DNA of 64,000 nucleotides from contig NZ_JAIELN010000016.1 of NCBI RefSeq assembly GCF_019753045.1, positions 1 to 64,000 on the forward strand, written 5' to 3'. The DNA comes from Hyphomicrobium sp. (GTDB lineage: Bacteria > Pseudomonadota > Alphaproteobacteria > Rhizobiales > Hyphomicrobiaceae). This document shows, piece after piece, positions 5,102 to 27,078 of the stretch. Positions within the stretch are counted from its first letter, which is position 1. The number at the start of each line of letters is the position of its first letter. A program made the position numbers and the translations under genes. The notes beneath the pieces are model-generated. The model ran no database searches, had not been told where the DNA came from, and saw only the letters and a list, made by a program, of their open reading frames with translations.

Positions 5102-5815
5102 ATGCATTTCCGCACCGTCTCTGACGCCGAAACAATTCTTCTTAACGATCAATTTCAACATCGTGAGCTTGCCATCTCCGCAGAGCCCGGCGCGCAAGCA
5201 CTGCTTCATGCGCGCGCCCACAAGGCCAATACCGCTTTCTTGAAGCGCTCATTGGATATCATTGTATCGGGCGCGTTGCTAGCGTTTCTGGCGCCAGGTC
5301 TCATACTCATCGGGCTTCTCATTCGCCTGGAATCCGATGGACCTGCATTGTTTCATCAAAAGCGCTTCGGTCGGAATGGCAAAATTTTCACATTGATGAA
5401 GTTTCGCAGCATGAAGGTGCAGGAGTCCGATGGCGCCTTCGTTCAAGCGAGAATCGCCGATCCGCGTTTCACTGCTCTTGGCCGATGGCTTCGTCGAACC
5501 AGCGTCGATGAGCTGCCCCAACTGTTCAATGTGTTGATGGGCGACATGTCATTGGTCGGCCCTCGTCCTCACGCTATTGCGATGGACCAGCATTACGCCC
5601 GTATCATTCCCCACTATTCAGATCGACTTCTCGTCCGACCTGGCCTGACCGGACTGGCTCAGATCTCCGGCCTGCGCGGCCCGACGAACACCTACGAAGA
5701 TATTTCGATGCGCGTGAATCGTGATCGTGCCTACGTACGGCGCTGGTCGTTCCTGTTGGACCTCAAAATTTTGGCGCGCACGCCTCTTGCCCTGTTCGGG
5801 CCAAACGCTCTCTGA
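5102..5815 (+). CDS. ExoY-like undecaprenyl-phosphate sugar-1-phosphate transferase
   Basis: The protein has 237 residues, the length of single-domain ExoY-type enzymes rather than the longer WcaJ type. A membrane-inserted hydrophobic helix (about residues 48-72) precedes the catalytic domain. The family signatures KFRSM, RRTSVDELPQLFNVL and MSLVGPRPH are intact. It transfers a sugar phosphate from UDP-sugar to undecaprenyl phosphate at the inner membrane, so it starts the repeat unit. The ATG at 5102 has GGAGG 6-7 bases upstream. It is the first gene of a three-gene operon with the BY-kinase and export protein. Confidence 0.93.
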   Translation: MHFRTVSDAETILLNDQFQHRELAISAEPGAQALLHARAHKANTAFLKRSLDIIVSGALLAFLAPGLILIGLLIRLESDGPALFHQKRFGRNGKIFTLMKFRSMKVQESDGAFVQARIADPRFTALGRWLRRTSVDELPQLFNVLMGDMSLVGPRPHAIAMDQHYARIIPHYSDRLLVRPGLTGLAQISGLRGPTNTYEDISMRVNRDRAYVRRWSFLLDLKILARTPLALFGPNAL

Positions 5816-5856
5816 CCAAGCACCTCCTGAGTACTCGGGCATAGAAAGGCGCTTTG

Positions 5857-15702: not shown

Positions 15703-18507
15703 TTAGAAGTGAACGTCGACACGGGCTGAACCGATGTGCGCCAGGTAATCCTCGCGAACGTTGGCGTCGTAGTTCAGTTCGAATGTCGTTTCCGCGCTGA
15801 TCTGAGCGAGCATTCCGACGCCGAGTGCCGCGGTGTCTCGTCCAACCGCCGGTCCGCCTGCCGCGAAGGTGCCGCCGCCTGCTGCAAAGCTGGCCGTGAC
15901 GTTCTGTGCGTCGTCAGCGAATTCATGCAGCCACAGTGCGCGACCTTGGATGACGGTATCGTTCGCGATTGGAACGAGCGCTTTCAGACCGAGGCCGGAC
16001 ACCAGTGAGTCGTTATCCTGGCTGGCGACGTCGAGCGCCATGCCGCCATCGCTGCTCTCAGTATAGCCGCTCTGGTGAAGCCGCGAATACGTCAGCGATG
16101 CGACAGGCGCAAGGATCGTGCTAGCGAAACGCATGGGAGCACCCACTTCGATCGCGGCGTTGAATTGACCGCCGTCATGGTTGCCCTCTGCCTTATCGGT
16201 GAAGGGAATGGTCAGCACACGGGTCGTGTCGTAGTCATTCCAAGTGAAGCCCGTGCGCGCCGACGCGTACCATCCAGATCCCTTGACCGCACCGTAGGCT
16301 TGGAACAGGTAGCTGTCGATTTCGGTGTTGTTTCGCGAAGTATCTCCGTCACCGGTGATCCGGGTATTTGCATAACCGCCGGCGACACCGACGCGAACTC
16401 CGGGCGAGATCCAGTTGTCGTAGCCGGCAAGGGCGCCGTAGATGCGGGCATCATAGCCGTCGACTTGTTCGCGCGTGTTTTGGTTCAACCCGGCTCCGAA
16501 GGCCTGGCCCCAGAGCGCCGCGCTGCGGGGAGCAACGAAGTCGGCGTCATCCTTGAGACCGCCACCGAGGTTCGAACGGTTCGGGTCAGACGGCTGCTTC
16601 ATGCCGAGCCCGGACGGTCCGGATGCGAAGGACGGGGCTCCGCCGGTGGCACCAACCGCATTGAGGCGCATATCGATGTGCTGGCCGACCGCGTTGTTCA
16701 AAGCAATCGCGGCTTGCTGGGTTGCAAAGTTCGTTTCAGGCGCAAGCTGATTGGCAGCTTTTGCAACATCGGAGTCGTCCGCCAGTTGCTGGACGGCGCC
16801 ACCTAGCGCATCGAGAACCGGATCCGCACCCGCTGCATCCATCAATACATTGACTGCTACTGCACCCGGCTTGGATATGCCCTCGATGTCGAACGCGTCC
16901 TTGACATCGGCTCCGATGACAAGTGCGTTCCTCGAGTTTTTGGCCGCTTCCCAGCTGACGAGAGCCGAGCCTTCGACTTCCGGAAGAGCCGTACCGAAGA
17001 GGGTCGTCGCGACCGTGTACCATTCACCGCTCTTCACCGTGGCGTCGATGACAGGTGCAAGCGTCGTCGTGCGTGCGATCGAAGAAGTTCCGCCAGCACC
17101 GTTGCTGATACCGTCCGCAATCTTCAGCGTGCCATCGATCAGACCGATCGTGCCTGCGCCGCTTGCGGTATTGGCGGTTGCGCCGCCGCCGCCAAAGATG
17201 TGAGGCGCAATGGTGACCTGGCTATCACGCACCGCGAACGAACCGACGGTTGTTGCCGCCTGCGTCTCGACGGTCAGATTTCCGACATAGGTTCCGGCAT
17301 TTTCGAATGTAAAGGACTTCGCGCCCCACATGCTCAGTGTGTAGGTGGTCGAAGATCCTACTGCTGCGCCGGCCGTTATTGTAGATGCCGAATTCTCATT
17401 GAATGCTTCTGCGGCAGGATTGCCCTGATACGTCGTGCCAGTCGTGGTCGCAGTGGCGAAGCAACCGTTAGCGCCGACCGTGCAAGAACGCCCAGTAACA
17501 ACTTGCATGCGCTGATCAACATCGATATTGCCGGTCAGCATCGCGCCCTTTTCGTTGATGAGCGTATGTTCGCCATTGCCGTAATAGATATTGCCGTCGA
17601 TCGTTCCCCTGTTCGTGATCTCGGAGTCGAGCTGGCCGAATTGATTATTGATGTTCAGTCGAGCGTCGGTTTGCGTACCGCCCGTTCCCAGCCCGTTCGA
17701 GAGAGCCCACCAGCGCACCGCGTTGCCGCCTACGGCAACGATATCGCCGCTGATCGTTCCGTTGTTTTCGATCGTAGCCGACCGAATCTCACCGCTGTCC
17801 GATACGATGCCAAGGGCAATTCCTGCGCCGCGGCCCGCCGTATGCGTGACCGTTCCATCGTTTTGGAGCTCGAATTCCCCAGCGCGGCTGTAGATGCCAG
17901 CTGCCAATTGGCCCGACGCAGAAATGGTTCCGCTGTTATTGATCGAGAGCTCTTCAAGTTCCTCTTCCGAGAAAACACCCGCAGCGGCCGACAAGTTGCC
18001 GCCGCTCGCCTGTAAAGAAGTGGCAGTGACAGTAGTCAACGTCAGCGGCCCGCGCGTAATGGAGATATTGCCTGTATTGTTGACGGTCATTTCTTCGGTA
18101 TCACCATTGCCGGCAATACCATAGAGCTGACCACGGCCCGCGCTCGTGAGCGTTATATTACCTGAGTTGTTGATGACATATTCACCCTCATCATCGGCAT
18201 TGATACCGATGATATTGACCGCATTAAAGGTGTTATTGTTGATTGAGATGTTGCCGAAATTGGTAAGGCGTGCTGCCTCACCCAACGGCACGACTTCTAT
18301 GCCTGTGGTTGCAGGAAGATTGCCCGGTCCCACCGAAATATTTGTGGTGTTGGTACTGGTGCCGTCACAAACGATGACATTTGGCGCGCTCCCAGAAGTA
18401 CAAGCTGCTAGCGCCTGCTGCGACACACCCATACTGAGTGCGGCCCCAAGGGAAGCAAGTATCAATTGCGCGGCCGGACGCCTCAAAACGTGAGTTGACA
18501 CAGACAT
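15703..18507 (-). CDS. Type V autotransporter with C-terminal beta-barrel
   Basis: The protein has 934 residues. Residues 1-34 are a signal peptide ending in QQALA. Residues 35 to about 640 form a passenger with many repeats of the kind INNSGNI(S/T) and ENNGTIS, expected to build a right-handed beta-helix. Residues from about 660 (AALWGQAFGAGLNQN) to the end are the autotransporter barrel, finishing in VDVHF with the terminal Phe used for outer-membrane insertion. No protease or lipase catalytic motif was seen, so adhesion or autoaggregation is the likeliest role (inference). ATG 18507 has GGAGG upstream. Confidence 0.9.
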   Translation of the reverse strand: MSVSTHVLRRPAAQLILASLGAALSMGVSQQALAACTSGSAPNVIVCDGTSTNTTNISVGPGNLPATTGIEVVPLGEAARLTNFGNISINNNTFNAVNIIGINADDEGEYVINNSGNITLTSAGRGQLYGIAGNGDTEEMTVNNTGNISITRGPLTLTTVTATSLQASGGNLSAAAGVFSEEELEELSINNSGTISASGQLAAGIYSRAGEFELQNDGTVTHTAGRGAGIALGIVSDSGEIRSATIENNGTISGDIVAVGGNAVRWWALSNGLGTGGTQTDARLNINNQFGQLDSEITNRGTIDGNIYYGNGEHTLINEKGAMLTGNIDVDQRMQVVTGRSCTVGANGCFATATTTGTTYQGNPAAEAFNENSASTITAGAAVGSSTTYTLSMWGAKSFTFENAGTYVGNLTVETQAATTVGSFAVRDSQVTIAPHIFGGGGATANTASGAGTIGLIDGTLKIADGISNGAGGTSSIARTTTLAPVIDATVKSGEWYTVATTLFGTALPEVEGSALVSWEAAKNSRNALVIGADVKDAFDIEGISKPGAVAVNVLMDAAGADPVLDALGGAVQQLADDSDVAKAANQLAPETNFATQQAAIALNNAVGQHIDMRLNAVGATGGAPSFASGPSGLGMKQPSDPNRSNLGGGLKDDADFVAPRSAALWGQAFGAGLNQNTREQVDGYDARIYGALAGYDNWISPGVRVGVAGGYANTRITGDGDTSRNNTEIDSYLFQAYGAVKGSGWYASARTGFTWNDYDTTRVLTIPFTDKAEGNHDGGQFNAAIEVGAPMRFASTILAPVASLTYSRLHQSGYTESSDGGMALDVASQDNDSLVSGLGLKALVPIANDTVIQGRALWLHEFADDAQNVTASFAAGGGTFAAGGPAVGRDTAALGVGMLAQISAETTFELNYDANVREDYLAHIGSARVDVHF

Positions 18508-19006
18508 GACTTCCCCCCTCCAGCCGGACGCTTTCCGGATGGCCCCTTGTTGATTGATTGTCTTTTGAGTGGATCTGGCTGCAGCTCGTCAGCCGGTCAC
18601 GGTATTTAGATGTTCGACATTTTCATTCGCGGTACCTGTTACTGCGACCCATACGAATTTCCGCGCTTTTAACGGTTTGTAGATATCTGCTGGCGGAGGC
18701 GCGGAGATATAGGACTAGTTCCCACAAGCGAAATAATGCGGCGAATGACTTTTACCGTGGCAACTTAGTTACAGCCGATTCAAATGTATTCTGTGCGCCA
18801 AAGCGTGGATTCACATCGGATGAGGCAAGCGGATCTCTGCCAATAGCTCCGAAAGGAGGTTGTGCGCGACGCGCGCTCCGAGCCTCTGTTGGCGGACGGA
18901 CTATTTTTGCCCCTGGGCCGCCCTTGTAAGAGCCCGGGGCGAGTACGTACATATCTATCAGTACAAAGCCGAAGATACGGTCATTCGATCGCCAAGTGCT
19001 ACCCCG
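18508..19006. other. Intergenic region between autotransporter and pentapeptide genes
   Basis: About 500 bases hold the divergent promoters. A very good ribosome-site-like GAAAGGAGGT occurs near 18850 but has no start codon at a workable distance. A GC-rich imperfect hairpin (CCCC-T-GGGC...GCCCGGGG) lies near 18909-18938. No convincing gene is seen. Confidence 0.35.
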
Positions 19007-19816
19007 ATGGTCCAGATGTTGAAATTCATCGCTGCGAGCTGCGCAGCAATCTTGACGATGGCCAGCGTACCGCCGGCTATGGTCGCTCAAGACATGACCG
19101 GCCTCGACACTTCCTCTCCCGCCTTCACGAAATCTGAGATGACGAGAGCGGATATAGAATCCGGTCTGACCAAGCTTCGGGGGGCGGAGATTCTCGATCT
19201 CAGCGGCAAAAGTTTGAATGGCCTCGACCTCTCGGGCATGGACCTCAGGCGGACCAAGTTGCAGTCCGCAAGAATCAACAACGTCAATTTCAAAGACGCC
19301 AACCTTGAAGGCGTTGTACTGGATCAGGCCTGGGCTCTGAAATCCGATCTGACGGGAGCCAAGCTCAAAGGCTCGAGCCTTTTTGCGACGCAGTTCGGTG
19401 GGTCAAAGCTTGATGGCGCCGATTTCTCGAACGCCCACGTCGCAGCGGATTTCAGTAACGCCAGCGTCACGGGCGCAAAGTTCGACGGAGCAGATCTGTC
19501 GGCCGACGAAAAAAACCAATCGATGGGACTTATGCGCGGCGCCTTCAAGAGCGCCAAACTTGATGGGTCTTCGTTCAAAGGCGCCAATATGGCTCGCGTC
19601 ATGATGGAGTACGCGTCGCTCCGCGGAGCGGACCTGACAAACGCAAACTTGAGAAAAGCCGAACTCGCTGCAAGCGATTTAACTGACGCGAATGTTCGGG
19701 GCGCAAATTTTGACGGCGCAGACGTCGACAGCGCTCGGATCGGCCACCTCATTAATGCAAATGAAGCCAAGAACTTCGATAAGTTGAAAAATGCTGATCG
19801 GAGCGTCCGCGACTGA
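19007..19816 (+). CDS. Exported pentapeptide-repeat protein
   Basis: The protein has 269 residues from ATG 19007; a second ATG at 19016 is equally possible. Residues 4-28 form a signal peptide ending VAQ. From about residue 50 the sequence is a run of A(D/N)LxX-type pentapeptides (LNGLDLSGMDLRRTKL, ANLEGVVL, GANFDGADVD), which fold as a square right-handed beta-helix. Most family members have no defined activity; a few mimic DNA but are cytoplasmic. Export to the periplasm argues against a gyrase-protection role. The upstream frame stays open to 18860 but would bury the signal peptide. Confidence 0.78.
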   Translation: MVQMLKFIAASCAAILTMASVPPAMVAQDMTGLDTSSPAFTKSEMTRADIESGLTKLRGAEILDLSGKSLNGLDLSGMDLRRTKLQSARINNVNFKDANLEGVVLDQAWALKSDLTGAKLKGSSLFATQFGGSKLDGADFSNAHVAADFSNASVTGAKFDGADLSADEKNQSMGLMRGAFKSAKLDGSSFKGANMARVMMEYASLRGADLTNANLRKAELAASDLTDANVRGANFDGADVDSARIGHLINANEAKNFDKLKNADRSVRD

Positions 19817-19923: not shown

Positions 19924-20358
19924 CTAGGGCTTGGGTTGGCGCAGCGACATTATATATGCCGCGACGTCGCCAAGCTCCTTCCGCGTTAGATGAGCGTTCG
20001 GCATCGGCCCATGAGCATTGTGCAACCAATTCGATATGCGCTCGGCTGACTGGTCATGAATATTGGCAATCGCTACAAAGCTCGGCACGTCAGCGTTCAC
20101 AGCCGAGTTCGGCTGATCTCCGATCATGTGACAGTTCGTGCATAGCGCACGAGCAACGGCGCGCCCGTTTTCGGGATCTGGCTTCTTCGCCTGTATCGCA
20201 TCGGGTTTCTGAACGGGCTCGTTCTCGTTGGACTGACCATTAGCCAGAGACGTAAAGGCACAAGCAGCGGCGGCAATCGCCAATAGTCTGGCAGCAACAG
20301 GGGCGCACCGTTGGATGGGCCTGACGCGCCAAGTAACTGTTCGATGGGACATAGGCAC
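19924..20358 (-). CDS. Small periplasmic class I cytochrome c
   Basis: The protein has 144 residues. The GTG at 20358 has AGGAG eight bases upstream and is preferred over the ATG two codons later. A signal peptide occupies roughly residues 1-41. Mature protein features are the heme motif CTNCH and a distal Met in GPMPNAHLTRKE, followed by a C-terminal helix (DVAAYIMSL). It is a monoheme electron carrier of the periplasm. It aligns visibly with the cytochrome at 26722-27078: FVAIAN...WL..AH..MPN...L...D..AYI.SL matches. The two look like paralogues flanking the oxygen-sensing genes. Confidence 0.88.
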   Translation of the reverse strand: MPMSHRTVTWRVRPIQRCAPVAARLLAIAAAACAFTSLANGQSNENEPVQKPDAIQAKKPDPENGRAVARALCTNCHMIGDQPNSAVNADVPSFVAIANIHDQSAERISNWLHNAHGPMPNAHLTRKELGDVAAYIMSLRQPKP

Positions 20359-20609: not shown

Positions 20610-21053
20610 ATGGCAACCATCGCGCCCGCGAAAGCCAAGCGAGCCTACGCAGGAATCATCATTGCCGCGCTTCCGATTCTCGTCGCGACGGCAGCTGGTG
20701 CGAATTCGCCGGCGACGACGGAAGCTTCGTTAGGGCAACTCTTGTTTGCAGGGCATTGTGCTCAATGCCACGGCGCCGACGGGAAAGGGCACGGGCCGGT
20801 TGCCGACGTGCTCAAGGTTGCGCCATCCGACCTGACGACCATCAGCATGCGCTCCGGCGGAAAATTCCCGGCCGAACGCATCGCCGAAACTATCCGTTAC
20901 GGAGGCAATGTTACCGCCCACGGTACGCGCGACATGCCGATCTGGGGCAAAGTATTTAGCGTCCAAGGCGGTGGCGGCAAACGCGGAGGCGCGTTCTCCC
21001 GGCAAGCCGTAATTCAGCTGAAAGACTACCTGGAATCCATTCAGCAGAAATAA
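20610..21053 (+). CDS. Periplasmic cytochrome c
   Basis: The protein has 147 residues. A signal peptide spans residues 1-31. The heme-binding motif is CAQCHGADGKGHGP, and the likely distal ligand is the Met in RDMPIWG. A C-terminal helix (AVIQLKDYLESIQ) closes the class I fold. A glycine-rich loop, VQGGGGKRGG, precedes that helix and is unusual. This type resembles small electron-transfer cytochromes found beside oxidases or dehydrogenases. ATG 20610 has AGAGGT upstream. It is divergent from the 19924 cytochrome. Confidence 0.88.
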   Translation: MATIAPAKAKRAYAGIIIAALPILVATAAGANSPATTEASLGQLLFAGHCAQCHGADGKGHGPVADVLKVAPSDLTTISMRSGGKFPAERIAETIRYGGNVTAHGTRDMPIWGKVFSVQGGGGKRGGAFSRQAVIQLKDYLESIQQK

Positions 21054-21575: not shown

Positions 21576-22109
21576 TCAACTGTCCAGTGCGAGCCCGGCA
21601 AACGGCAACGGATTGGCCGCGGCCCATTCGAGGTAAATTTTGCGTTCGATTGGAGCAAGAGCCTCACGCAACACAGGCAGAAGCAGAACGTGTTCCGCCT
21701 CGATGTGATCCCGCCGCCGCTCTGAAACATGCCGCAAAAGATACGCCAACGTATCGCTTGCCTTCCCGCCGGACACGGCGACGCGAAGCGTCTCGATAAG
21801 TTCATCATTCGCGAAACGGATTTCGCTGTGCTGACGATCAAGTAGCGCCGCACATCCGCATTGCCCACCGCCGTTCCGGCGTTTGAGAAGCGGACAAATC
21901 ACTTCGTCTTGAAAGCGGACATGCCCCAGCCAAGCTGCGTTGAATATTTCAATGAGGCGTTGAGTGAGATTGTGGTCGGCCGTTTTTGGCAGTCCGTCCG
22001 CGAGCGCAAGCAACCCACGGCACACTTCAAGTTGTAGGGCATGGTCAGCAAGAAACCTTGCCCCAGGATGGTCCTCGTCGAACTGTGATGTTGCTGTTTG
22101 CTCGGCCAA
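21576..22109 (-). CDS. Hemerythrin/HHE-domain protein
   Basis: The core is a four-helix HHE domain with the metal-ligand pattern visible: HALQLEVC, HVRFQDEVICPLL, HSEIRFANDEL and HIEAEHVLLLPVL. Such proteins bind O2 or sense iron or nitric oxide. The start is unclear. The frame is open to 22277, overlapping the divergent kinase gene, and has no ATG. I place the start at the TTG at 22109, which follows AGGAG by 11 bases and leaves the domain intact. A FNR/FixK-like site would then lie upstream of it. The neighbourhood (heme-PAS kinase, cytochromes) fits an oxygen-related job. Confidence 0.72.
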   Translation of the reverse strand: MAEQTATSQFDEDHPGARFLADHALQLEVCRGLLALADGLPKTADHNLTQRLIEIFNAAWLGHVRFQDEVICPLLKRRNGGGQCGCAALLDRQHSEIRFANDELIETLRVAVSGGKASDTLAYLLRHVSERRRDHIEAEHVLLLPVLREALAPIERKIYLEWAAANPLPFAGLALDS

Positions 22110-22166
22110 CGGCGTAAAGGCTCCTATTTCGGACCGCCATTTTGCGGCGACCGCGCCATTCGGGCC

Positions 22167-22180
22167 TTGATCGAGATCAG
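22167..22180. promoter_or_regulatory. Possible FNR/FixK box
   Basis: TTGAT-CGAG-ATCAG matches the TTGAT-N4-ATCAA consensus at nine of ten positions. It lies 58 bases upstream of the proposed hemerythrin start and 89 bases upstream of the FixL-like kinase start. It could serve either gene. Such a site can arise by chance. Confidence 0.35.
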
Positions 22181-22268
22181 TTCTGAGCCGCCTCCGCCCG
22201 AATATTTTGCGACGCTCTGATCCGGCGGCGTCTGCTGGATTGCCGAATGCCAAGGCGGTAAGGTGCAG

Positions 22269-24209
22269 ATGAGCCAAGCAATAATCTCAAGGTCATCAAT
22301 GCTCCAGGCGATTCTGGATTCCGCGGTTTCCGCCATCCTGGCGATCGACGACACCGGCCGCATCCGAAGCGTCAATCCGGCGACGGAAGTGATGTTTGGT
22401 TACCGTGCCGATGAAATGCTCAACCAAAATGTTAAGATGCTCATGCCCGAGCCTTATCGCACGGAGCACGACGATTACATCGGCCGGCACGTCAAGACAG
22501 GCGAGAAGCGCATCATCGGCATCGGCCGCGAAGTCAAAGGCCAACGGAAGAATGGCAGCATCTTCCCGATCCACTTGGCCGTCAGCGAATTCATGGTCGA
22601 CGGACGGCGGTTCTTCTCGGGCATCATCAACGATCTCAGCGACCGCGCCAAGTTGCAGGATGAGGTGGATCGTCAGTCGCGCCTGTTCGAGACGGTCTTC
22701 GAACACGCCCCCGAAGCTCTCGTCATCTCGTCCCCCGACGGGAAAATCCTTCTCTTCAATCCAGCCGCAACGAGAATATTCGGGTACGACGTGGCCGAAG
22801 CCACCGGCATGGCATGGTCGAATTTATTTGGAAATCCCGAAGGCCTTCCCCAGATCGAATTCGATATTTCTCGGTCGAGCGAGCGAGCGCCGGACCTCAA
22901 CCTCTCCGTGATGTTACGCCGGAAAGACGGCAGCAGTTTTCCGGCCGAAGGGATAATCACTCAGGTCGCCGATCAGCATGCGAGGCTGAGTGTCCGGGTG
23001 AGCGTCTTTCGGGATGTCACGGAAAGGCTCAAAAACAAAGAAGCGGCGGTCAAATCGCAACGCCTTGAAGCCATCGGACAGCTCACCGGCGGCATCGCTC
23101 ACGACTTCAACAACCTGCTCACGATCATATCGGGCAACCTGGAGCTTCTCGAAGAGCAGCCCTTGAGCGAGCAGGATCGCAATCTTCTTGATCGGGCAGC
23201 ACGAGCGGCGGATTCTGGCGCGCGGCTCACGAAGCGCCTCTTGACCTTTGCACGCCGGCGCCATCTCGCGCCCGCGGTCATCAACCTGAACGACCAAGTG
23301 CGCACCATGACGGAACTGCTCCGTCGCACGCTCGGCGATATGATCGAGCTCCGCACCCAATTCGCGTCGCCTTTATGGCTCGTCCGCGCCGACGCCGGAG
23401 AAGTCGAAGCGGCGGTCTTGAACCTCGCCATCAACGCACGTGATGCGATGCCGGAAGGCGGCACCTTGGCAGTGCGAACCGATAATGTCGTTCTCCAAGA
23501 AGGAGAGACCGGCCTCGAGGATTCGCTCAGAGCCGGAGACTACGTGCGGATTTCCGTTTCCGACAACGGCATCGGCATGAGCAAGGATGTTCTGAGCCGC
23601 GTGTTCGAGCCATTTTTCACGACCAAGCCTGTAGGACGCGGCACTGGCCTTGGCCTCAGTACGATCTATGGCTTCATCAAGCAGTCGAACGGCAATATCA
23701 CGATCAACAGCGAGCCAGGCATTGGCACGACCGTAAATATGTACCTGCCCCGTTGCGACGAAGAAGCCGCGCAGCACGACGAAACCTTATCGCTCGCCCC
23801 GGAACCGCATGCGAACGGCGAGTGCATCCTGGTTGTCGAGGACAACCGGGACGTTCGCCAGTTGACCGTCAACCGGCTCAAGCGGCTGGGTTATGATACA
23901 GTCGAGTGCGCGAGCGGCGTCGAGGCAAAGGCGGCCCTCGAAAGCGGACAACAGGTCAGCGCAGTATTCACCGATATCGTGATGCCCGGCGGCATGACCG
24001 GTATTGAACTCGCGACCTGGATCTCTTCCCACTTGCCGGACCTACCGGTCATTTTGACGACGGGTTTCTCCGATGACGCAGCCGGCAAGAGCGAAGCCGA
24101 CGCCTTCTGGCCAATTCTGCGCAAGCCATACACGCTGAAGCAGCTCTCCAACGTGTTGCGCACAACGATCGATAAGAATGCCGCCCGCCAGGCGTCGCTG
24201 CGCGACTGA
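22269..24209 (+). CDS. FixL-like heme-PAS hybrid histidine kinase
   Basis: The protein has 646 residues and no membrane helix. PAS1 (about 10-125) is very like the FixL heme domain. The heme ligand position is His67 in TEHDD, and Arg73, Ile82 and Arg87 correspond to Arg206, Ile215 and Arg220 of Bradyrhizobium FixL. PAS2 (about 140-255) is followed by a HisKA domain with His278 in IAHDFNN. Next come an HATPase_c domain (NLAINARDAMPEGG, DNGIGM, GTGLGLST) and a C-terminal receiver with Asp569 (VFTDIVMP). It should autophosphorylate when deoxygenated. The attached receiver is the hFixL layout. ATG 22269 has AGGT upstream. It converges with the response regulator gene. Confidence 0.9.
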   Translation: MSQAIISRSSMLQAILDSAVSAILAIDDTGRIRSVNPATEVMFGYRADEMLNQNVKMLMPEPYRTEHDDYIGRHVKTGEKRIIGIGREVKGQRKNGSIFPIHLAVSEFMVDGRRFFSGIINDLSDRAKLQDEVDRQSRLFETVFEHAPEALVISSPDGKILLFNPAATRIFGYDVAEATGMAWSNLFGNPEGLPQIEFDISRSSERAPDLNLSVMLRRKDGSSFPAEGIITQVADQHARLSVRVSVFRDVTERLKNKEAAVKSQRLEAIGQLTGGIAHDFNNLLTIISGNLELLEEQPLSEQDRNLLDRAARAADSGARLTKRLLTFARRRHLAPAVINLNDQVRTMTELLRRTLGDMIELRTQFASPLWLVRADAGEVEAAVLNLAINARDAMPEGGTLAVRTDNVVLQEGETGLEDSLRAGDYVRISVSDNGIGMSKDVLSRVFEPFFTTKPVGRGTGLGLSTIYGFIKQSNGNITINSEPGIGTTVNMYLPRCDEEAAQHDETLSLAPEPHANGECILVVEDNRDVRQLTVNRLKRLGYDTVECASGVEAKAALESGQQVSAVFTDIVMPGGMTGIELATWISSHLPDLPVILTTGFSDDAAGKSEADAFWPILRKPYTLKQLSNVLRTTIDKNAARQASLRD

Positions 24210-24213
24210 CAGC

Positions 24214-24933
24214 CTAAACAGACCGGCGAACGTCGCTCGCGAACATATACCCGACCCCTCGGATCGATTTGATATGCTCGACGTCCGTCTCGTCGTCGAT
24301 TTTCCTGCGTAACCGGCTGACGAGCGCGTCGATCGAGCGATCGAGTGGCGAGTAATCGTGCCCCTTGAGGAGATCCATAATCTCGTCTCGGGACAGCACC
24401 CGATGCGCGTGCCGCACGAACAGCTCGAGCAAATTGAATTCGGCCGTGGTCAACTCGCGGCGCTCGTTCAACTGCCCCTTGAGCTCACGGCTCGTTATGT
24501 CGAGCGTCCAACTACCGAAGCGGAATACTTCATGCGCGGAAGCAGCCGGTCGAGCGGCAGGCGCATTGCCGGCCTCCCTCCGTCTCAACACCGCGCGCAC
24601 GCGCGCCAGAACCTCGCGTGGACTGAAAGGCTTCGCAATGTAGTCGTCGGCGCCGACTTCCAGCCCGACGATGCGATCCACCGTATCGCCCTTGCCCGAA
24701 AGCATCACGATCGGCACGTCGCAGGACGCTCGGATTTCTCGCGCGAGGCTTAAACCGTCATCGCGGCCGAGCGTCAGATCCAAAGTAATGAGGCTGATGG
24801 TGCCGCGCTCCAGCGCAGCCCGAGCGTTCCGGGCGTCAGGCGCTTCAATGACCTCGTAACCTTCCCGCTCGAAGCACGTCTTGAGTAAGTTTCGGATCTC
24901 GGGATCATCATCGACAACGAGTATTTCTGTCAC
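24214..24933 (-). CDS. OmpR-family response regulator (FxkR-like candidate)
   Basis: The protein has 239 residues. The receiver domain has the acidic pair DDD at 8-10, the phosphoacceptor Asp52 (ITLDLTL), and the Thr/Ser and Lys switch residues in MLSGKG and KPFSPRE. A winged-helix Trans_reg_C domain follows (RELTTAEFNLLELFVRH...RVLSRDEIMDLL...RGVGYMF). I chose GTG 24933; a TTG at 24948 would add five residues. The gene lies between the FixL-like hybrid kinase and the fixK-like gene, divergent from the latter. It is therefore the obvious partner of that kinase. In R. etli the equivalent FxkR activates fixK. Identity with FxkR is inference. Confidence 0.88.
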   Translation of the reverse strand: MTEILVVDDDPEIRNLLKTCFEREGYEVIEAPDARNARAALERGTISLITLDLTLGRDDGLSLAREIRASCDVPIVMLSGKGDTVDRIVGLEVGADDYIAKPFSPREVLARVRAVLRRREAGNAPAARPAASAHEVFRFGSWTLDITSRELKGQLNERRELTTAEFNLLELFVRHAHRVLSRDEIMDLLKGHDYSPLDRSIDALVSRLRRKIDDETDVEHIKSIRGVGYMFASDVRRSV

Positions 24934-24959
24934 GACGCGGGGTTCCAAATGTCAGGTCG

Positions 24960-24985
24960 GTTACAATCTATTACAATTGATTACA
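24960..24985 (+). promoter_or_regulatory. Triple TTACA direct repeat (K-box-like)
   Basis: GTTACA-N4-ATTACA-N4-ATTACA occupies 24960-24985 with an exact 10-bp period, so all copies face the same side of the helix. It lies 75 bases upstream of the fixK-like start and 26 bases upstream of the response regulator start. The spacing equals that of the GTTACA-N4-GTTACA K-box recalled for R. etli FxkR. OmpR-type regulators commonly bind such direct repeats. Confidence 0.7.
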
Positions 24986-25060
24986 CAGAACGCAAATGCC
25001 CGGTACGTTAATCCTGTCTTATGCCCCCGACTGACGCAGGGCAGAAGGGATATACGGGAC

Positions 25061-25747
25061 ATGTATAGTGCGCCACAAACCGAGCAGGTCACGGGCTTCA
25101 AAACCGGTCGGAAAGCGCCCAACCGCCATCCCGTTGACGGTCTCGACGGCTTCCATTCAGGGACCGTCCGGCGCGTCGAAGCGAAAGAACATGTCTTTTG
25201 CGAAGGAGACCCCCGGACGCATGTATATCGCATCGAAGACGGTGTGATTGCTCTCTCAAAGGTCCTGAGCGACGGCCGCCGCCAGATCATCGACTTTGCT
25301 TATCCGGGTGATTATATCGGCCTAGGCATGTTCGGCGACCATGTCTTCGACGCGCAAGCCACGTGCGCCTGCAAGGTTAAGTGTCTGCCGACATCGCAGC
25401 TCGAACATGATGCGGCCCGGGATCCTGCCCTTGCCTTCCGGCTCTATAATGCCGTTTCAGCAGAACTCTCGGCCGCGCGCCGGCTGCTCGTCAGCGTTGG
25501 TCAGGGCACCGCAATGGAACGGATTGCTTCGTTTCTTATCGAATTGAAAGGCCGTGGCGGCCACACGGGAGAAGATCTTATTAACCTGCCAATGCGTCGC
25601 TCCGATATTGCCGATCTGCTCGGCTTGACGATCGAGACGGTCAGCCGCACGCTGACGAAACTCAGGATGATGCGCGTCATCGAGATACAGAATGGAAATG
25701 ACGTTCGCATTCTCGATTCCCACCGCCTGGAAGAGATCGCCGGCTGA
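25061..25747 (+). CDS. FixK-like CRP/FNR transcription regulator
   Basis: The protein has 228 residues. It has an N-terminal cNMP-type effector domain, a long dimerisation helix, and a C-terminal HTH (MRRSDIADLLGLTIETVSRTL). The E-T-V-S-R recognition helix is the FNR/FixK type that reads TTGAT-N4-ATCAA. There is no N-terminal cysteine cluster for an iron-sulfur centre, so it should not sense oxygen directly and fits FixK rather than FNR. ATG 25061 is preceded by a weak GAAGGGA. The K-box-like repeat upstream suggests control by the adjacent response regulator. Target genes probably include respiratory or stress genes; only one candidate box was found in this window. Confidence 0.88.
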   Translation: MYSAPQTEQVTGFKTGRKAPNRHPVDGLDGFHSGTVRRVEAKEHVFCEGDPRTHVYRIEDGVIALSKVLSDGRRQIIDFAYPGDYIGLGMFGDHVFDAQATCACKVKCLPTSQLEHDAARDPALAFRLYNAVSAELSAARRLLVSVGQGTAMERIASFLIELKGRGGHTGEDLINLPMRRSDIADLLGLTIETVSRTLTKLRMMRVIEIQNGNDVRILDSHRLEEIAG

Positions 25748-26721: not shown

Positions 26722-27078
26722 ATGACGAGAAAAGTCTTTGGTGGGACAAAGTCATATTACTTGCTTGCGATGACTGTGGCGCTTCTTACGCTGGCGGAGG
26801 CACACGCTGCGGAGCCCGGAAATCCGAACGTAGGCCACACATTCGCGTCGGATCATTGTTCCGAATGCCACGCCGTCAACGAAAATGAGGCGCTATCGCC
26901 GAATGCTGGCGCGCCCAGTTTTACGAGCATCGCCAACACATCGGGAATGACGGGCCTCGCACTTTCAGCGTGGCTCGATACCGCCCACCCGACAATGCCG
27001 AACTTTATTCTTTCAAAGCAAGATCGCGATGACGTGATTGCTTATATTATAAGCTTGAAACGCAAAGCGTCCCAGTAA
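26722..27078 (+). CDS. Small periplasmic class I cytochrome c
   Basis: The protein has 118 residues. The signal peptide runs through AEAHAA (about residue 30). The heme motif is CSECH and the distal Met is in HPTMPNF. The C-terminal helix DVIAYIISLKRK closes the fold. It resembles the cytochrome at 19924-20358 in sequence and length of the mature part. It lies downstream of the UspA gene on the same strand with an inverted repeat between them. The function is electron transfer in the periplasm, partner unknown. ATG 26722 has GAGGGG nearby. Confidence 0.88.
   Translation: MTRKVFGGTKSYYLLAMTVALLTLAEAHAAEPGNPNVGHTFASDHCSECHAVNENEALSPNAGAPSFTSIANTSGMTGLALSAWLDTAHPTMPNFILSKQDRDDVIAYIISLKRKASQ

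Follow-up and report, generated by a model that had tools for sequence, protein, structure and literature searches.

Introduction

The FixLJ-FixK2 system of Bradyrhizobium couples a heme PAS sensor to fixK as its output, and its regulator FixJ is a LuxR-type protein with a site different from the one considered here. Another cascade, hFixL-FxkR-FixK, has been reported in Rhizobium etli, R. leguminosarum and S. meliloti, and its origin has been placed in the ancestor of the Rhizobiaceae (PMC7888657; PMC4999443). In R. leguminosarum (johnstonii) 3841 and R. etli CFN42 it consists of a hybrid kinase with a heme PAS domain, an OmpR-type regulator and a divergent fixK (fixK9b/fxkR9), with GTTACA-N4 repeats between fxkR and fixK and an anaerobox in the loop, and the operator, or K-box, is described as two half-sites (PMC7888657; PMC4999443). 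The present analysis concerns a locus with the same kind of components in Hyphomicrobium sp. (NCBI RefSeq assembly GCF_019753045.1), lying within positions 1 to 64,000 of the forward strand of contig NZ_JAIELN010000016.1 (hereafter the window, i.e., the whole stretch of 64,000 nucleotides). Judged from sequence comparison, it is probably a microoxic circuit of the hFixL-FxkR-FixK type whose regulator belongs to a second FxkR lineage, termed lineage B below. Its features are:

22263-24209, + strand: hfixL, hybrid histidine kinase of 648 amino acids (Pfam; start at GTG 22263 or ATG 22269)
22299-22634, + strand: FixL-type heme PAS domain with H69, R75, I84 and R89 (Pfam span; aligned to chains 1d06, 8js5 and 1dp6)
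24214-24933, - strand: fxkR (lineage B), OmpR-type response regulator (Pfam, tree; ATG 24933, upstream TTG 24948 possible)
24960-24985, + strand: putative operator, half-sites GTTACA 24960-24965, ATTACA 24970-24975 and ATTACA 24980-24985 (sequence)
25061-25747, + strand: fixK, CRP/FNR-type activator without N-terminal cysteines (Pfam, FixK2 structure, Cys positions)

The three genes and the gap before fixK are as described in a first-pass annotation of the window (open reading frames (ORFs), Pfam and sequence). The hfixL stop lies 4 base pairs (bp) from the end of the leftward fxkR, so that the two genes form a convergent pair, and fixK runs rightward, divergent to fxkR; in the rhizobial loci, in contrast, the kinase gene stands behind a fixK. 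The locus resembles Bradyrhizobium FixLJ-FixK2 in its heme PAS sensor and fixK output but has no FixJ-type LuxR regulator beside the sensor. The annotation's statement that FixJ is lacking holds for the locus and not for the whole genome, which elsewhere encodes one FixJ-like protein (C1:484719), whose score of 236.7 bits falls short of the curated cut-off, 255. No FixL-like PAS was found near this protein, and the neighboring frame has only a kinase ATPase domain.

Regulator Lineage and Sensor Kinase

The regulator has Response_reg and Trans_reg_C domains (Pfam) and is 54% identical to the FxkR of R. etli CFN42 encoded on p42f, the next best p42f match being 32% identical. Of 146 regulators, 94 were kept for a careful tree, the long-branch, distant and duplicate rows having been removed (one of those removed, L043, had fallen among B). 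Two lineages were resolved. Lineage A (22 rows, support 100/97) holds the FxkR of R. etli CFN42 (L106) and that of R. johnstonii (L101); lineage B, with 37 rows and support 99/98, includes the window regulator. Together A and B form one clade (99/90) against 35 other OmpR-type regulators. A quick tree of all 146 rows also recovered both, although their joins were weaker and long-branch rows of Azospirillum and Telmatospirillum stood next to A. The placement of the regulator far from FxkR, named beforehand as the outcome that would speak against the proposal, did not occur: it belongs to the sister clade of the characterized FxkR, apart from the sampled OmpR-type regulators. The annotation's likening of the cascade to that of R. 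etli is supported; it does not extend to nesting within the characterized rhizobial clade A, nor to the kinase domain order.

Named members of lineage B include Devosia, Methylocystis, Hyphomicrobium and Terrarubrum flagellatum; it is not wholly outside the Rhizobiaceae, since one of its loci (L033) is titled Rhizobiaceae bacterium. A fixK divergent to the regulator was found in 43 of the 146 loci, all belonging to A or B, and the kinase gene is usually convergent to the regulator in B and usually behind fixK in A. The divergent fixK/fxkR pair with a convergent kinase recurs on the T. flagellatum plasmid NZ_CP091853 (L103), in Devosia (L025, L027) and in Methylocystis (L024). The T. flagellatum locus, whose annotation reads no more than response regulator and PAS protein, shares the third half-site and has a cco operon nearby. 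The same wiring occurs in a sister lineage that reaches the family of the window, with which a named Hyphomicrobium groups, and also Devosia, Methylocystis, Terrarubrum and others. The circuit was therefore probably a microoxic switch of older origin, taken into symbiosis at a later time. Among the papers listed in a literature search on FxkR in non-rhizobial genera none holds FxkR, which does not establish absence from print.

The kinase carries, in order, a heme PAS, a second PAS (PAS2), HisKA, HATPase_c and receiver domain (Pfam). It appears to be soluble, as had been claimed, with no transmembrane-like stretch and a top 19-residue Kyte-Doolittle mean of 1.29 (hydropathy only, with no dedicated predictor). 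The first PAS domain aligns with solved FixL without gaps across the heme pocket, with the spacing of all four heme residues kept, and the best-matching solved structures are heme PAS domains of FixL (E 1.9e-33 and 5.1e-28), ahead of DosP. Counted from the GTG these residues are H69, R75, I84 and R89, identical to the H67, R73, I82 and R87 reported earlier from ATG 22269. We take them to correspond to H200, R206, I215 and R220 of Bradyrhizobium FixL, numbers that agree with the aligned spacing. A FixL-type heme PAS (His/Arg/Ile/Arg) and a receiver are therefore combined in one hybrid kinase, as in the described cascade. The domain order is not that of R. leguminosarum hFixL9, where the extra region precedes the heme PAS and does not follow it: the R. 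johnstonii protein has about 140 residues N-terminal to the heme PAS and no PAS2-sized region between heme PAS and HisKA. It also has His in place of Arg206, whereas the window kinase keeps all four residues.

A survey of 50 A and B loci, with the residues readable in 44 kinases (16 of lineage A, 28 of lineage B), found all four residues in 13 of the A kinases, the remaining 3 having His at Arg206. Among the B kinases, 6 of 28 have all four, 10 more differ at Arg206 alone (Asn or Ala) and one at Ile215 alone; L103, L025 and L027 have Asn for Arg206.

The Putative Operator before fixK

The arrangement GTTACA-N4-ATTACA-N4-ATTACA noticed before fixK is present at 24960-24985 as GTTACAATCTATTACAATTGATTACA, with ATCT and ATTG as spacers and an exact 10-bp phase. 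It holds the K-box (GTTACA-N4-GTTACA) in the form GTTACA-N4-ATTACA, followed by a third half-site. The genome-wide repeat search that had been proposed was carried out: in the 4.52-megabase genome an exact RTTACA-N4-RTTACA occurs only as two overlapping matches in this repeat, with about 0.24 pairs and about 4e-5 exact triples expected by chance per genome (first-order Markov model from the window). Exact triples were found in 2 of 297 genomes of the order, this one and G276, each time between fxkR and fixK. A chance repeat is rejected by its uniqueness in the genome, by the search of the 297 genomes and by the Markov expectation. The same search with one mismatch allowed was uninformative, because the reversed control pattern matched in 7 genomes against 8 for the pattern itself; six of these, beyond the two above, had one-mismatch matches only, G247 having eight. 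Further FxkR targets in the genome were sought with up to 2 mismatches (24 matches vs. 27 for the reversed control), and nothing beyond fixK stands out.

The regulator is present (E <1e-70) in 10 of the 21 same-genus relatives listed, and in all 10 the box precedes fixK, with 0-1 mismatch in half-sites 1 and 2 and 0-3 in the third. Where fixK adjoins the regulator (G433, G444, G435, G431 and G432), half-sites 1 and 2 are exact and the third has 0, 0, 0, 2 and 3 mismatches, respectively. The other five (G434, G331, G438, G439 and G443) carry fxkR and hfixL together with no fixK there, and no pair within 3 mismatches was found in the 300 bp beside these two genes; the box lies at a distance, about 100 bp before a fixK whose product is 67-70% identical to the window FixK, with 1-2 mismatches in the third site. 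These genomes provide a natural separation of the box from the regulator gene and, because the box stays with fixK in all five, it belongs to fixK. One further box match each was seen in G434, G331 and G443, that of G434 preceding a second FixK-like gene (36%), and G435 has a second match near receiver-domain genes.

The third half-site was then examined across lineages, in 36 of the 43 fixK-divergent loci having a pair with ≤2 mismatches on the fixK strand. The offset +20 ranked first of 48 both over all 36 loci, with a mean match of 2.92 of 6 (z 4.4), and in 21 representatives (<70% identity), with 3.33 of 6 compared with 1.63 for the remaining offsets (z 5.5). The 13 lineage-B representatives reached 3.77 at this offset (z 6.6) and the eight of lineage A 2.62 (z 1.5, rank 3 of 48, p 0.03), with a stronger 3.62 at +30. 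A held-out B set, fetched after the hypothesis, contributed 10 of 25 loci, those with an adjacent fixK, after exclusion of near-copies of the window (L217-L219) and of 12 loci with no adjacent fixK; the boxes of L229 and L234 are the same as those of L021 and L182, two loci absent from the first statistic. Here +20 gave 3.90 vs. 1.52 (shuffle p 5e-5), with no signal at +30. In a held-out rhizobial-family set, +20 gave 2.60 (p 0.018) and +30 gave 3.80 (p 5e-5). The latter set comprised 10 of 15 loci, L262, L264, L265 and L269 being left out as collected before and L273 as having no pair within 3 mismatches; it includes L268 and L275, with poor boxes, and L276, and both L275 and L276 have a B-like layout and are not on any tree.

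With up to 2 mismatches allowed, 16 of 26 B loci have a third half-site, compared with 1 of 17 A loci and 2 of 33 loci of other OmpR-type regulators (Fisher tests: B vs. others 6e-6, B vs. A 3e-4). The third half-site thus marks lineage B, and this comparison over many genomes suggests that the DNA target of the regulator comprises three evenly spaced copies in place of the two reported for rhizobia. The idea that three half-sites are a deviation peculiar to the window is rejected by the cross-locus and held-out statistics: they are frequent in lineage B, and the rhizobial boxes too have a degenerate third and a fourth half-site. The difference is thus between three good half-sites in the window and, in rhizobia, two good, one degenerate and one further.

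FixK, Possible Promoter and Possible Feedback

The fixK product has CRP/FNR domains and its closest solved chain is FixK2 (4i2o); as no cysteine occurs before residue 47, it has no N-terminal iron-sulfur motif. Upstream, an alignment of 11 fixK promoters of the genus showed the half-sites and a GCAWA block to be the main conserved features, and the promoter may be located as follows:

24992-25022, + strand: possible fixK core promoter, a weak inference, with GCAWA at 24992-24996 and TCTTAT at 25017-25022 (alignment of 11 genus promoters)

GCAWA and TCTTAT have about the spacing of -35 and -10 elements, and the -10-like TCTTAT at 25017 would place the third half-site near -48. In R. johnstonii 3841 the first base of the fixK9a and fixK9b K-boxes lies 77 bp upstream of the reported start sites, the -62 given there being the 3' end of the 16-bp K-box (PMC7888657). 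More half-site-like letters follow in that genome between box and promoter, and the lineage-A fourth site lies at -47 to -42, directly upstream of the expected -35 element.

On the other side of the locus two features bear on a possible feedback loop:

22167-22180, + strand: anaerobox-like site TTGATCGAGATCAG, 1 mismatch, candidate FixK feedback site between hfixL and the hemerythrin gene
21576-22277, - strand: hemerythrin-domain gene divergent from hfixL, longest ORF (Pfam; true start probably about 22142 or later)

Window-wide, 35 anaerobox sites with ≤2 mismatches were counted vs. 26 expected, so that the hfixL-side site matters by its conservation and not by its existence. Eight genus sequences were aligned, that of the window and those of 7 of the 10 relatives; in all but L325 a site with ≤2 mismatches occupies the aligned place while its surroundings vary. 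Although this site falls inside the longest hemerythrin ORF, it is probably intergenic, because the main protein match in L322 and L323 begins at residue 46 and the first ~60 residues match only as a separate piece. In L321, on the other hand, the 233 residues of the ORF match in one piece. Its conservation before hfixL suggests feedback by FixK. In R. leguminosarum, by comparison, an anaerobox lies between fxkR9 and fixK9b (PMC7888657).

In the rest of the genome, the cbb3 oxidase gene ccoN is present (over cut-off), and palindromic TTGAY-N4-RTCAA sites number 27 vs. 2 for the control, 16 inside predicted ORFs and 11 outside. One of the 16 (L308) stands at the very start of an ORF with a CRP-type helix-turn-helix, and may precede the true start. 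Some of the 11 precede a hemA-like aminotransferase gene, an acetyl-CoA-ligase-like gene with a phaC-like gene (hemA and phaC assigned by eye), a metal P-type ATPase gene and a protoglobin chemoreceptor gene.

Interpretation and Alternatives

Gene content, heme-PAS residues, lineage, operator uniqueness, third-site conservation, the staying of the box with fixK and the conservation of the hfixL-side site were all obtained by computation. We infer oxygen as the ligand, the phosphotransfer, the binding and the sign of regulation. When oxygen is scarce, O2 would leave the heme PAS and the hybrid kinase would autophosphorylate, passing phosphate to the OmpR-type regulator through its own receiver or directly. 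The phosphorylated regulator would then occupy the three helically phased half-sites head-to-tail and activate fixK, and would probably also restrain its own divergent gene. FixK would in turn switch on anaerobox genes and feed back to hfixL and the hemerythrin gene through the site at 22167-22180.

Several observations weigh against this interpretation. Of the 10 same-genus relatives with the regulator, 5 lack an adjacent fixK. In L163 and L167, two more lineage-B members of the genus, the regulator adjoins neither fixK nor a box; the lineage may include members with other duties. Eleven of 28 B kinases are without the heme signature (weak alignments, 50-76 bits), among them all six surveyed of the Hyphomicrobium group, the Methylocystis locus and its sister L178; oxygen sensing is therefore not universal in lineage B. 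As to the operator, seven of the 43 divergent loci (L021, L171, L182, L185, L189, L198 and L205) have no pair within 2 mismatches and were excluded from the statistic, 10 of 26 B loci with a pair have no third site within 2 mismatches, and shared ancestry is not removed by the shuffle tests. Outside A and B, moreover, 21 of 80 OmpR-type regulator loci have a pair with ≤1 mismatch, and a single round of mononucleotide shuffling gave 0 of 142. GTTACA-N4-GTTACA alone is accordingly rejected as an identifier of FxkR: the pair is an OmpR-family motif, so that specificity for FxkR lies only in the additional half-sites and in the linkage. Finally, the DNA upstream of ccoN showed no clear anaerobox, its best site having 2 mismatches, and for this reason a FixK regulon is not claimed.

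An alternative is an operator in which two half-sites suffice as a normal K-box for one dimer, the third arising secondarily from a promoter element or a wandering site register. Two half-sites make up the K-box as described (PMC7888657; PMC4999443). The third site is degenerate in lineage A, where none of 10 loci with ≤1 mismatch in the pair has it within 2 mismatches; it is missing from the Devosiaceae-type boxes L025, L196, L199 and L200, and it has 3 mismatches in G432. We nonetheless regard this explanation as unlikely, because the third site recurs in the held-out B loci, is rare at other OmpR-type loci and accompanies the box at fixK genes distant from fxkR. Improbable, too, is a nitrosative or redox switch, with a kinase sensing nitric oxide, carbon monoxide or, via PAS2, redox state in place of oxygen: the second PAS between heme PAS and kinase core, the hemerythrin gene divergent from hfixL and the signature-less B kinases could be taken in its favor, but the window kinase keeps the four FixL residues, its closest solved relatives are FixL before DosP, and the neighboring target is FixK. 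The regulator and kinase might also be neighbors with other partners, given that R. etli Mim1 (L102) has no such kinase within 8 kilobases either side of fxkR and that the 50 genome matches to the FixJ-type receiver model imply many receiver domains. This we consider very improbable, as fxkR and hfixL remain together in the five genomes with fixK and box elsewhere, and in many B loci.

Within the hFixL-FxkR-FixK interpretation, FxkR may act on phased arrays that differ in length between lineages (in B three contiguous half-sites; in A two good, a degenerate and a fourth) and that reach the fixK promoter, an odd or extended polymer and not one dimer setting a sharp oxygen threshold; we hold this proposal tentatively, at slightly less than an even chance. 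If it is true, the published K-box is the upstream half of a longer operator. From the comparison of operators, the K-box as known is predicted to be incomplete. Arrays are not new for the OmpR family, since Escherichia coli ArcA, an OmpR/PhoB-family regulator, is known to use three to five direct repeats one helical turn apart, the outermost repeats setting the footprint (PMC3798270). What this work adds is the presence of the array and its lineage-specific form in FxkR. ArcA differs in its 11-bp phase and its many, mostly repressed targets (PMC3798270), against a 10-bp phase, one clear target and a predicted activator in the window. The boxes of Devosia and genomes grouping with it (L025, L196, L199 and L200) have two good half-sites, none at +20, and ATTAC at about +32, roughly two helical turns on, which resembles the 22-bp spaced repeats of ArcA.

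Additional Observations

Exact RTTACA-N4-RTTACA was also seen upstream of OmpR-type regulators outside A and B, pointing toward the regulator's own gene in L039, L044, L095 and L210 and away from it in L208, L211 and L215; the former four suggest autoregulation by a shared family motif. In the Hyphomicrobium-group loci L022, L181, L183, L187, L188 and L192, whose kinases have no heme signature, no fixK was found divergent to the regulator, and a box with ≤2 mismatches is kept in five of the six, L192 having 3. In L022 a small divergent protein with no Pfam match (5446-5844) takes the place of fixK, near fixG and a metal P-type ATPase. The regulators of L163 and L167 adjoin a gene resembling, by eye, a zinc-binding transport protein.

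The protoglobin-coupled chemoreceptor (G000:C19; L312:1783-3462) has its palindromic anaerobox-type site about 300 bp upstream. The circuit is surrounded by genes for three small c-type cytochromes, a host-attachment/baeRF12 protein and a universal stress protein (19924-20358, - strand; 20610-21053, + strand; 26722-27078, + strand), surroundings that are kept in the three closest relatives except for one cytochrome not found in L323. Farther out, an autotransporter protein (15703-18507, - strand) and a pentapeptide-repeat protein (18860-19816, + strand) are encoded.

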